From positions 1-34,584 of IMG/VR virus record IMGVR_UViG_3300037493_001919: 34,584 bases of DNA; one strand, given 5' to 3'. The notes under the pieces were generated by a model, which saw nothing but the letters and a program-made list of their open reading frames with translations, ran no database searches and was not told the DNA's origin. Below are positions 128 through 34,584 of this stretch, piece by piece (position 1 is the stretch's first letter; each line of letters opens with the position of its first letter). The DNA is from a virus. The position numbers and the translations under genes are program-made.

Positions 128-725
128 TCAGGCAAGCTGCCATCGCGGTATCTGTCATAGATAACAGTCTTCACCCAGTTGTTCGCAGGGTTGCAAGTCG
201 CCAAGCAAACAATCGGCGGTTTGCCGTGCGCCTTGTTCCAACTTCCGATGCGCTCCTGCACCTTGTAGAAGGTCGGCTCTTGTAGCTCGTTAACCTCATC
301 AAGTCCTGCGCCGTTCACTTCCAATCCTCTAAAGCGGTTGAGGTCTTTATCCTCATCAAAGCTCTCAGCCATAAAGATAAGCTCGCTGCCGTTGTTAAAT
401 GTAACTACATTCGTGTCTCTGTTCCAACTTCTGATATGTGCGTTTAGCCCATCGCCAAGCAAGCCAGTGAATGAAGGGAAGGTCGTGCGCTTAAGGTCGG
501 GCAAGCTCTTGCGGATGATTACCCATCGACTGCCGCCGTAAGCGAGTGCCAAGTGAGTTAGTGTAAGTAATAGCCAGTAGGTTTTTCCACCTCGTTAATC
601 TTTCCCCCTTACATTTCTGCAAGGGGAGACCATCGTATAGCACCCCCGAAAACAATTACTCGCTTGTTTCCGCTGGTTGCCATATCAAAGGCTGATGTTT
701 GTGTCTTGGTTAATGTGAAGCTCAT
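1..725 (-). CDS. terL: Large terminase, 5' part, split in Walker A by a 41-nt element
   Basis: This is the ATPase half of the phage DNA packaging motor. Codons 1-31 run from ATG 725 to 633 and end at the P-loop residues GGAIR. A 41-nt element (592-632) follows, then the frame resumes at 591 with GGKTYW. Joined, the two parts give G28-AIRG-G33-K34-T35, a perfect Walker A. Walker B (LDE, D129-E130) and the coupling motif TCNP (163-166) follow. Without removal, translation stops at TAA 609-611 after 38 codons. The downstream frame has its own TAA just before CGA, so a simple frameshift cannot join the parts. The first in-frame ATG after the break is codon 105, too late to include Walker A. The ATG overlaps the small terminase stop (ATGA). 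The gene continues at 34457-33864 for a total of 425 residues. Confidence 0.9.
592..632 (-). other. 41-nt intervening element with GNRA hairpin inside terL
   Basis: On the minus strand the element lies between the codons ATA-CGA and GGT-GGA-AAA, and itself ends in CGA. ACGA is thus repeated at both borders, and the exact borders may shift by up to 4 nt. Bases 605-626 form a 9-bp stem, CCCCTTGCA against TGTAAGGGG with one G-U pair, closed by a GAAA tetraloop. The in-frame stop TAA (609-611) lies in the 3' arm. A purine-rich GGGGGAAAG sits just upstream of the second CGA. The length of 41 is not a multiple of 3. Matching take-off and landing codons, a strong hairpin holding the stop, and a purine-rich stretch before landing are features of translational bypassing as in T4 gene 60. 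An RNA-level excision or a disrupting insertion is also possible. Confidence 0.8.
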
Positions 726-10091: not shown

Positions 10092-10233
10092 TTTTTATAA
10101 GTTTAAATAATTGCTTTTTGCTTTTCACCAGGATGCGCTTATCTTTAATCTCAGCCTCTAAAATGTTTAATGCCACGCACACTGGCATAAAGTTCTCAAC
10201 TACGTGAAGCGATAGCTTTTCCTCGATTGTCAT
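10033..10233 (-). CDS. Small hypothetical protein, 66 residues
   Basis: Not recognised. Helical and basic in the middle (DKRILVKSKKQLFKLIKNG). It overlaps the PAS-HisKA gene upstream by 4 nt and the membrane protein downstream by 59 nt, so it is translationally coupled. No membrane helix is seen. Confidence 0.6.
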   Translation of the reverse strand: MTIEEKLSLHVVENFMPVCVALNILEAEIKDKRILVKSKKQLFKLIKNGFEQASTGNLPHTAAALN

Positions 10234-10820
10234 ATCTCGCGTGTTGCTTTTTTCATTAATGCCTTAATCGAATCATCGAGCTTGCTCAGGCAAGTATCAA
10301 TCATATTTAGCACCCCTTGTTTTTCGCGCTCATCCATAGGTTGTTGCAGCATACTAACTAAAGAACTTAATGATGTCATCGGCTGCCTTACTTCGTGGCT
10401 TAGCATAAACCGAAACTCCTCAAGCAATGCTCTTTGCCTTTGGTATTCGTGTGCGGTAATTGAGGAGACATCGACAAGCTGGATGCCTATAAAGGTAATA
10501 TTATTTCCGATTGCAAAGCAGTTCCAAACATTGTAGCGGTGCATCAAGTTCTTATGCTTGGTCCTCGCATATACTCTTGTCGGCTCAGGAGATTGATTGA
10601 TAGCTTTGCGGATTGCCTCGATAAAATCTTCGCGGTCTGTTTCAATATCAACGATGTCAGTTATCTTCTTAGGTTGGATATGACTAACATAGCTCTTAAA
10701 TAGCGTGTTGTTAGTTATTATGTTGCCCTCCATATCGGTGACCACATAAAACAAATCCAAGTTATTCTCTAAGATGAATAATAGAGACATCTGCGAAGGT
10801 CTGAATAAAGTTTCCCCCAA
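10230..10820 (-). CDS. PAS-HisKA protein lacking the kinase ATPase domain
   Basis: The N-terminal 120 residues look like a PAS sensor domain (LDLFYVVTDMEGNIITNN, then FKSYV, later NITFIGIQLVDVSSIT). A helical histidine-kinase dimerisation domain follows, with the H-box FRFMLSHEVRQPMTSLSSL, in which H142 would be the phosphorylated histidine. The protein ends at residue 196, right after the second helix, with no N, G1 or G2 boxes of the HATPase domain. It could be a phospho-acceptor, a decoy dimer partner of a host kinase, or a remnant. It is complete, with its own start and stop and coupled overlaps. A start at Met11 (10790) would shorten the overlap with the gene upstream. Confidence 0.75.
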   Translation of the reverse strand: MGETLFRPSQMSLLFILENNLDLFYVVTDMEGNIITNNTLFKSYVSHIQPKKITDIVDIETDREDFIEAIRKAINQSPEPTRVYARTKHKNLMHRYNVWNCFAIGNNITFIGIQLVDVSSITAHEYQRQRALLEEFRFMLSHEVRQPMTSLSSLVSMLQQPMDEREKQGVLNMIDTCLSKLDDSIKALMKKATREI

Positions 10821-33556: not shown

Positions 33557-33867
33557 TGTATCAATGCAGCTGAGAATGATAAACACTTGTAGATATCGCC
33601 ATCGACTGTGATGTCTTGATGGCTTTGCTCTGTTGCGGTTAGTGTTACCCATATCGTGTAGCCTTGCATCGGGTCAAGGGTCAACCCTTCAATTGTTATT
33701 ATGCCTTCGCCATCGCTCTCAGCTTCAATGAGCATCACATTGCCAGTTGCATTGTGCTGAACCCATACGAAGAACTCGGTGTTGGCTTCAACTTCGCCAA
33801 AGGTAAAACTACCCAAGCAAGCATCAATGTAATCGCCTGCATTGTAACAAGGTGTGCATACGCTCAT
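33553..33867 (-). CDS. Small beta-rich structural-like protein
   Basis: A 104-residue protein starting at ATG 33867, overlapping the terL stop by 4 nt. It opens with MSVCTPCYNAGDYIDACLG, three cysteines in 17 residues, and continues with beta strands (EFFVWVQHNATGNVMLIEAE and GYTIWVTLTAT), as in an Ig-like or head-decoration fold. The Cys-rich start resembles that of the probable tail tube protein. It is likely a virion part; no family is recognised. Confidence 0.6.
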   Translation of the reverse strand: MSVCTPCYNAGDYIDACLGSFTFGEVEANTEFFVWVQHNATGNVMLIEAESDGEGIITIEGLTLDPMQGYTIWVTLTATEQSHQDITVDGDIYKCLSFSAALIQ

Positions 33868-34584
33868 AAGTATCGCTTTAAAATTGCGTTCACAAAGTAA
33901 CGAAAACAATCTAAGAAATCGGCGCGCTCACTTAATATTTTTCTATTACTTTTTATTATGCTGCCGTTGCTATCGCACTGCACCTGCTTTGCATCAAACA
34001 CAAAGCCCTTGCATTTAACCGAGTTGGCTCGGATGTCGAGCTTCCGCAGCGCAGCATTGCAATCAATCCTGCTGTTGTAGTGCGTTGGGTTGGCTGGTAT
34101 TATTATCTGCGAATCGCTGAGGTGCAATCGGCGTTTTATTTGCGTGTATGCGCTTGAGTTGTCTCTCTGCTGCACAGTGCCGCCCTTGCCCATCGCATCG
34201 CCAGTGATACGCAGCAAGCCCATCGGTATGCCCATTCGCTCAATGTAATCGCAGAACGCATCAACGCTGCCCTTCTCAATCTTTATCTCATCGACCACCA
34301 CGCAGCCTCTCGGCAGTTGCTGAATCACCAGTGCGCATAGTGGGTTAATGTTGAAATCGACACTGATGAAGATAGGTATATTGCGATTTAGCGCAATGCT
34401 ATCATCGATATGCTTCTCATCCTGCCACTCGTAAAGGAATGGATTGGCAACATCGTCTAAGATATCCCAATCGCCCTCAACGAAACGCTGATACTGCACT
34501 GGCGGAAGTTCGCGCAAGCTCTCCAAGTACTCGGCAGGGATGTGTGGGTTGTCGGTTATCTTACTTGGTATGTAGCTCCACCTC
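33864..34584 (-). CDS. terL: Large terminase, 3' part (nuclease domain)
   Basis: The continuation of the gene that starts at 725. The frame runs off the right end and continues in the identical bases 1-127. The part holds the RNase H-like nuclease that cuts DNA during packaging: FISVDFNINP with D262, ITGDAMGKGG with D315, and ERADFLDCF with D408 and D411, numbered in the joined 425-residue protein. These acidic residues are the expected metal-binding set. There is no internal break in this part. The stop TGA overlaps the ATG of the next gene. Confidence 0.9.
   Translation of the reverse strand, partial: RWSYIPSKITDNPHIPAEYLESLRELPPVQYQRFVEGDWDILDDVANPFLYEWQDEKHIDDSIALNRNIPIFISVDFNINPLCALVIQQLPRGCVVVDEIKIEKGSVDAFCDYIERMGIPMGLLRITGDAMGKGGTVQQRDNSSAYTQIKRRLHLSDSQIIIPANPTHYNSRIDCNAALRKLDIRANSVKCKGFVFDAKQVQCDSNGSIIKSNRKILSERADFLDCFRYFVNAILKRYL
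34458..34584. repeat. Terminal direct repeat, right copy (circular join)
   Basis: Identical over 127 bases to 1-127. See the left copy; the overlap lies within terL and shows that the two window ends join. Confidence 0.95.

Follow-up and report, generated by a model that had tools for sequence, protein, structure and literature searches.

How does a phage make a terminase from a gene that is broken inside an essential motif? The window analysed here is a 34,584-nt IMG/VR virus record (IMGVR_UViG_3300037493_001919) with a 127-bp end repeat (34458-34584 repeats 1-127) and is taken as circular. Its terminase gene, terL, is split within the Walker A motif by 41 nt that shift the frame and carry a stop. 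To our knowledge, efficient long-gap ribosome bypassing in phages has hitherto been represented by one well-studied case, T4 gene 60. The anatomy of the locus and of its relatives fits programmed translational bypassing of that kind, whereas splicing, frameshifting or an artefact would account for it far less well, and we conclude from sequence comparison that the 41 nt are most probably the gap of such a bypass, over which the ribosome would hop to yield an intact terminase.

Results

The terL gene lies on the minus strand and spans the circular join. Its parts, in window coordinates, are as follows.

633..725, minus: terL ORF1, from ATG at 725 to CGA at 635-633, 31 codons, MSFTLTKTQTSAFDMATSGNKRVIVFGGAIR, ending ...FGGAIR with the takeoff codon last
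633..688, minus: upstream (5') hairpin within the coding sequence, its 3' arm finishing at the takeoff codon (MFE and pairing comparison)
633..635, minus: putative takeoff codon CGA (Arg), kept among element-bearing TerL-A genes
592..632, minus: predicted untranslated gap, exactly 41 nt, MFE -18.1
627..632, minus: spacer TGGTCT, 6 nt, from takeoff codon to gap hairpin (sequence reading)
605..626, minus: gap (takeoff) hairpin CCCCTTGCA-GAAA-TGTAAGGGG, 9 bp, GAAA tetraloop (covariation)
609..611, minus: in-frame stop TAA in the 3' arm of the gap stem (sequence)
604..609, minus: AGGGGG, Shine-Dalgarno-like, 9 nt ahead of the landing codon (sequence)
592..594, minus: putative landing codon CGA; between the hairpin and this codon no frame has a cognate codon
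1..591, minus: first part of terL ORF2, GGTGGAAAAACC (GGKTYW...), in a frame different from ORF1 and open to base 1
33864..34457, minus: remainder of terL ORF2 past the circular join, reading 34457 to 33864

From 632 to 592 the gap reads TGGTCT-CCCCTTGCA-GAAA-TGTAAGGGG-GAAAGATTAA-CGA. A sequence-only reading of the locus had described the 41-nt insert, its 9-bp GAAA stem, the in-frame TAA and the CGA at both takeoff and landing, and was right to the base; the upstream hairpin (688-633) is absent from it. ORF1 corresponds by homology to codons 1-31 in intact TerLs. Exact removal of the 41 nt restores TerL, as had been proposed: the joined protein has 425 aa and matches Pfam Terminase_6N at 1.7e-9, compared with 5.9e-5 for the downstream ORF alone. 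The record holds this one terminase match and no second terminase. A hairpin pattern drawn from the window element has an expectation of 0.01 in the shuffled window, and no tRNAs were found in the window. Elsewhere, 10230-10820 (minus) encodes a small protein in which PAS-like and histidine-kinase-like (SHEVRQPM) sequence can be made out by eye; it has no PHROG match.

The exclusion of ordinary frameshifting holds, since a stop closes each terL frame at the gap: the TAA in the stem for ORF1 and, for the downstream frame, a TAA at 597-595 immediately before the landing CGA at 594-592. A single frameshift therefore cannot join ORF1 and ORF2. Successive frameshifts or stop readthrough might be entertained for the L017 group, in which the downstream frame is open across the gap. 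Such decoding would, however, insert about 13 residues into the P-loop or another conserved motif, stops bar both frames in the window, and the matched codons described below would go unexplained; we regard such a route as vanishingly improbable.

A search for related terminases with and without the element, suggested by the sequence-only reading, returned both kinds at the same TerL codon. Among 80 viral contigs the majority have a continuous 1275-nt gene and the others an additional 41 or 39 nt at that codon. At least 43 distinct TerL-A records bear an element of 39, 40 or 41 nt at this site and have close relatives without it; this lower bound comprises 40 records from pattern scans and the TerL search, the window's included, plus L226, L237 and L240. 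By hand count, about 41 metagenome data sets contributed these records in addition to the data set of the window. In complete contigs the joined gene has 425 codons (+/-1) with or without the element, the sole exception being L016, which has the element and in which the joined TerL frame meets a stop at codon 268 while homology goes on, through sequencing error or damage. Takeoff is CGA in 40/40 element-bearing records, as the search pattern required; among full-length genes CGA stands there in 29/29 with the element versus 18/43 without. L087, a 40-nt variant among the 40 records, differs in frame and yet still meets CGA. Purifying selection acts downstream of the gap, with dN/dS of 0.034-0.054 in the element-bearing groups versus 0.044 in element-less genes. 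On the TerL-A tree the element trait changes at least nine times, at least five of them forced by well-supported branches.

An insert that disrupts the frame and adds a stop within an essential motif could signify a dead gene or an assembly or sequencing error. Dozens of data sets share the insert; this, the selection downstream, compensatory stem changes in both hairpins and the lack of other breaks in 160 TerL-C and glycosyltransferase loci all speak against such a defect, and recurrence and selection already refute it; its probability is negligible. None of the findings that the sequence-only reading had named as contrary to its proposal (an assembly error, a second terminase, a differently conserved P-loop) was obtained.

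A 52,227-bp contig (IMGVR 3300044695_002763) contains an intact and an element-bearing TerL (L034, L043), about one genome length apart and about 90% identical, and is probably two strains joined in assembly. Between L058 and L053, 93% ungapped identity starts at the TerL junction with no similarity reported upstream, possibly a recombination breakpoint at the element.

The gap hairpin, consensus CCCCU..GNAA..AGGGG, covaries strongly and includes G-U pairs, which answers positively the covariation test proposed earlier for related copies. Across 18 distinct gap hairpins 96.3% of cells are paired, double-change cells number 31 versus 10.8 when shuffled, and the covariation score is 0.539, as against 0.191 for shuffled (0/500) and at most 0.164 for slid versions. 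The four inner stem pairs were unconstrained by the search pattern and hence provide an independent test for pattern-found copies. Many G-U pairs and the GNAA loop indicate that the hairpin is active as sense RNA, because the opposite strand would have A-C mismatches. Pairing of TGGTCT with AGATTA, which would lengthen the stem at its base, lacks conservation and was rejected. With alleles of both kinds and covarying stems in hand, bypass stands as the best-supported reading.

Gap lengths are 38, 39, 40, 41 and 42 nt, with all three frames represented. In 29/29 distinct elements the last gap codon is synonymous with the takeoff codon, often with a different third base, and in 28/29 no frame offers a cognate codon between hairpin and landing. 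Takeoff codons across contexts are CGA, ATT, GCT, GGT and TCT. We estimate the coincidence of this match at about 4e-9, taking seven contexts at roughly 1/16 each, with two of the terminase families related. The decoding rule of tRNA-Arg(ICG) is established; if it applies here, the TerL-A landings (CGA, CGC or CGT, never CGG or AGR) are the set expected when this tRNA re-pairs. Landings from TCT to TCA and from GGT to GGA would need relaxed wobble, which counts against the bypass reading. The spacer between takeoff codon and gap hairpin is always 6 or 7 nt and unconserved in sequence, and the AGGGGG stretch sits 6-9 nt ahead of the landing. PMC9976891 describes Bacteroidia ribosomes as failing to recognise Shine-Dalgarno sequences; little weight is therefore put on AGGGGG as such a helper, and its role in Bacteroidota is doubtful.

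Wherever three divides the gap length, an in-frame stop lies at most two codons from takeoff, so plain read-through is blocked. Such a stop is present in many copies and absent at that place from the window and most 41-nt copies. The many early stops would suit an off-switch, with the hairpins halting the ribosome, the short peptide being the product and full TerL being rare or made by downstream reinitiation. Reinitiation products, however, would miss Walker A, and landing codons stay cognate, the match being retained even in the 40-nt variant. We consider an off-switch very unlikely.

The sequence-only reading had placed RNA excision beside bypass, and of the two only bypass is favoured by these data. 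In excision, the 41 nt would be cut from the mRNA as a tiny intervening sequence and the ends ligated, paired hairpins guiding the cut; an element that acts as sense RNA and whose exact removal restores the gene would agree with this. The gap edges, however, have no conserved sequence, and hairpin-to-edge distances vary (6-7 nt and 10-13 nt). The edge codons agree by amino acid and not by letter, for which splicing has no need. An Rfam search gave no match, and we know of no bacterial machinery for such an intron. Synonymous end codons, gaps in three frames, unconserved edges and a 5' hairpin at the takeoff codon together argue for bypass and render excision improbable.

This 5' hairpin leaves a trace in synonymous sites. 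In element-bearing TerL-A genes pS is 0.13-0.28 over codons 1-31 versus 0.38-0.44 downstream, likely owing to a long hairpin within codons 13-31, the takeoff codon forming the end of its 3' arm; element-less genes have no such reduction (pS 0.578, 0.552). The window hairpin has an MFE of -21.4 versus -13.5 for a synonymous-codon null (5/1000), and 93.9% of upstream-hairpin cells are paired in element-bearing versus 62.1% in element-less TerL-A genes. All six other contexts described below have an upstream hairpin built from unrelated sequence. In the recoding test, on a 60-nt segment (75 nt being needed for L103), no synonymous version matched the stability of the hairpin in any of the six contexts, with MFE versus null of -19.4/-7.8 for L090, -23.5/-9.6 for L119, -25.8/-10.1 for L123, -18.4/-7.1 for L111 and -26.7/-7.3 for L112 (each 0/500). 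At 41 of the 45 loci passing the hop filter, which include one bacterial false positive (L186), pairing stops 0 or 1 nt away from where the takeoff codon ends; in L103 the hairpin ends 6 nt before the takeoff codon. L240, a TerL-A variant, misfits the TerL-A upstream pairing yet folds at -23.4. L103 and L240 count against the bypass reading.

In the TerL-C/E and glycosyltransferase families the upstream hairpin is stronger than in all intact relatives tested. Intact TerL-C/E genes average -8.2 (lowest -17.0) versus -23.5 and -25.8 with the element, and intact glycosyltransferases -7.7 (lowest -17.8) versus -26.7 and -22.4. In three uninterrupted glycosyltransferase loci (L396, L397, L404) the stretch immediately ahead of the position matching the takeoff codon forms a strong hairpin (-17.8, -17.8, -16.6), possibly a relic of a lost gap or a pre-adapted site. 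Compared with an element-less gene, TerL-A genes with the 39-nt element and those of the L017 group are 91-95% identical downstream and 67-77% over codons 1-28, a drop suggesting that upstream arm and gap act as one cassette, by exchange or co-selection. By eye, no nascent peptide is common to the classes. The TerL-A residue M15 (29/29 element-bearing versus 0/43 element-less genes) is explained by the RNA arm of the upstream hairpin.

A hairpin pattern freed of any gene anchor, CCCCTNNNNGNAANNNNAGGGGGNAA, located this arrangement also in a family-B DNA polymerase, a phage glycosyltransferase and four further terminase lineages. Insertion contexts in phage genes thus number at least seven, each within a conserved motif: beside the TerL-A site, these are YGGGAGG^GKS, YGGAI^RGGKT, YGGAA^GGGKS and QGGTS^AGKT in TerL, QLA^LKLVLNGSYG in the polymerase and DDI^RMTSG in the glycosyltransferase. 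Three of the joined proteins were aligned with intact homologues and show no gap at the join, the homologues being TerL of Flavobacterium phage 11b, the glycosyltransferase of Flavobacterium phage immuto and the polymerase of huge phage LR745206. Family-wide scans free of hairpin bias found 4/80 TerL-C and 1/80 glycosyltransferase genes interrupted, and these 160 loci contain no break other than this element. Takeoff falls 25-34 codons past the likely start in all cases, including the polymerase, whose gene is split and begins just upstream; the hop may require that the nascent chain be short. For most classes the closest named phages infect Flavobacterium, Cellulophaga, Tenacibaculum, Prevotella or Bacteroides, from which we infer Bacteroidota hosts for the element-bearing phages.

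A scan of 85k prokaryote genomes gave at least 50 matches, and none among those listed is convincing as a hop site; three flagged matches sit in long continuous ORFs and were rejected. Nothing was found by a TerL search of the genome contigs collection, nor by blastn for the element in named phages. Looser gap-hairpin patterns (Y/R; R/Y fifth pair) revealed no new gene-splitting sites on inspection, so CCCCU/AGGGG appears specific. Some loci deserve separate mention. The split polymerase of L111 combines its bypass-type gap with an intein in the next conserved motif. A recurring CCCCTATCT-GCAA-CGTAGGGGG hairpin lies just 5' of a conserved, unsplit gene in L126, L127, L134, L135, L137, L145 and L147 and may be an unrelated leader element. 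In L088 (3289-3318) a similar hairpin lies immediately 5' of a gene that looks by eye like IS605-type TnpB, probably by chance.

Discussion

That the ribosome hops, how efficiently it does so and what the hairpins contribute are our interpretation of these comparisons. The ribosome would read 31 codons and come to hold peptidyl-tRNA-Arg on the weak codon CGA, where the gap hairpin, 6-7 nt downstream, may block A-site decoding or termination. The anticodon would then release, the ribosome slide ahead over the gap, and the tRNA re-pair with the first cognate codon, 7-10 nt beyond the hairpin, after which GGKTYW would be read in the new frame to give intact terminase. The ribosome would melt the upstream hairpin on its way through, and the hairpin may form again in its wake; with the takeoff codon in the 3' arm, this would hide that codon and make the slide one-way, as a putative ratchet. 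No signal of a 3' stem-loop was seen at the start of ORF2, after the landing.

T4 gene 60 has a 5' stem-loop, a takeoff codon, a tetraloop stem-loop in the gap and a cognate landing codon (PMC11194080, PMC3014915, PMC5009743), with takeoff at codon 46 (PMC11194080). The elements described here resemble this topoisomerase gene and its 50-nt bypass in being a probable hop of similar length in a phage gene, with cognate takeoff and landing codons, a tetraloop gap hairpin beside the takeoff, a coding-sequence hairpin upstream, a stop near the takeoff (in many copies, not all), a Shine-Dalgarno-like stretch 6-9 nt ahead of the landing and a takeoff near the gene start (codons 25-34 here). They differ in that a conserved hairpin sequence is common to unrelated genes, takeoff is at CGA, ATT, GCT, GGT or TCT instead of GGA, the landing codon is often merely synonymous, the nearest named hosts are Bacteroidota, and there are many instances instead of one. 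Neither a conserved nascent peptide nor a 3' stem-loop is seen here, whereas both are parts of the T4 system, in which the 3' stem-loop is described as a landing aid rather than as class-defining. Both negatives count against the bypass reading.

Three further systems can be compared. In Magnusiomyces capitatus mitochondria, byps at 81 positions are untranslated and bypassed; the inserts are likewise many, with takeoff and landing codons imperfectly matched at times, but bypass there is seemingly independent of mRNA context (PMC5009743), unlike here, where two structured elements recur. Another phage terminase gene with a proposed hop shares gene type and hop, but has a far shorter gap, a UUA codon link and no hairpin cassette in the review (PMC5009743). 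A 29-nt hop was claimed for a Bacteroidota gene, the Prevotella loescheii adhesin, which had no follow-up and was hard to reproduce in E. coli (PMC5009743). In the open-licence papers searched, we found no earlier description of such a hopping family.

The proposal that the insert is a homing-type mobile element fared less evenly. Presence and absence at a conserved site together with occurrence in unrelated genes are as for homing-type elements, and this patchy distribution agrees with it; the analysis revealed neither a mobility gene nor a mechanism of insertion, however, and among the few genes inspected around terL of the window there is no homing nuclease, only a sub-threshold VRR-NUC match. 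We give about even credence to a movable family of bypass cassettes, each of two hairpins and a synonymous landing codon, that invades conserved motifs near the start of essential Bacteroidota-virus genes and is tolerated via the hop, perhaps protecting the site against nucleases whose target is the uninterrupted motif.

In element-bearing genomes standard gene callers split an essential phage gene. T4 gene 60, seemingly near-unique, is probably one of a family, and with at least seven contexts and dozens of natural variants the rules of hopping (hairpin, codon, distance) would become readable by comparison and directly testable.
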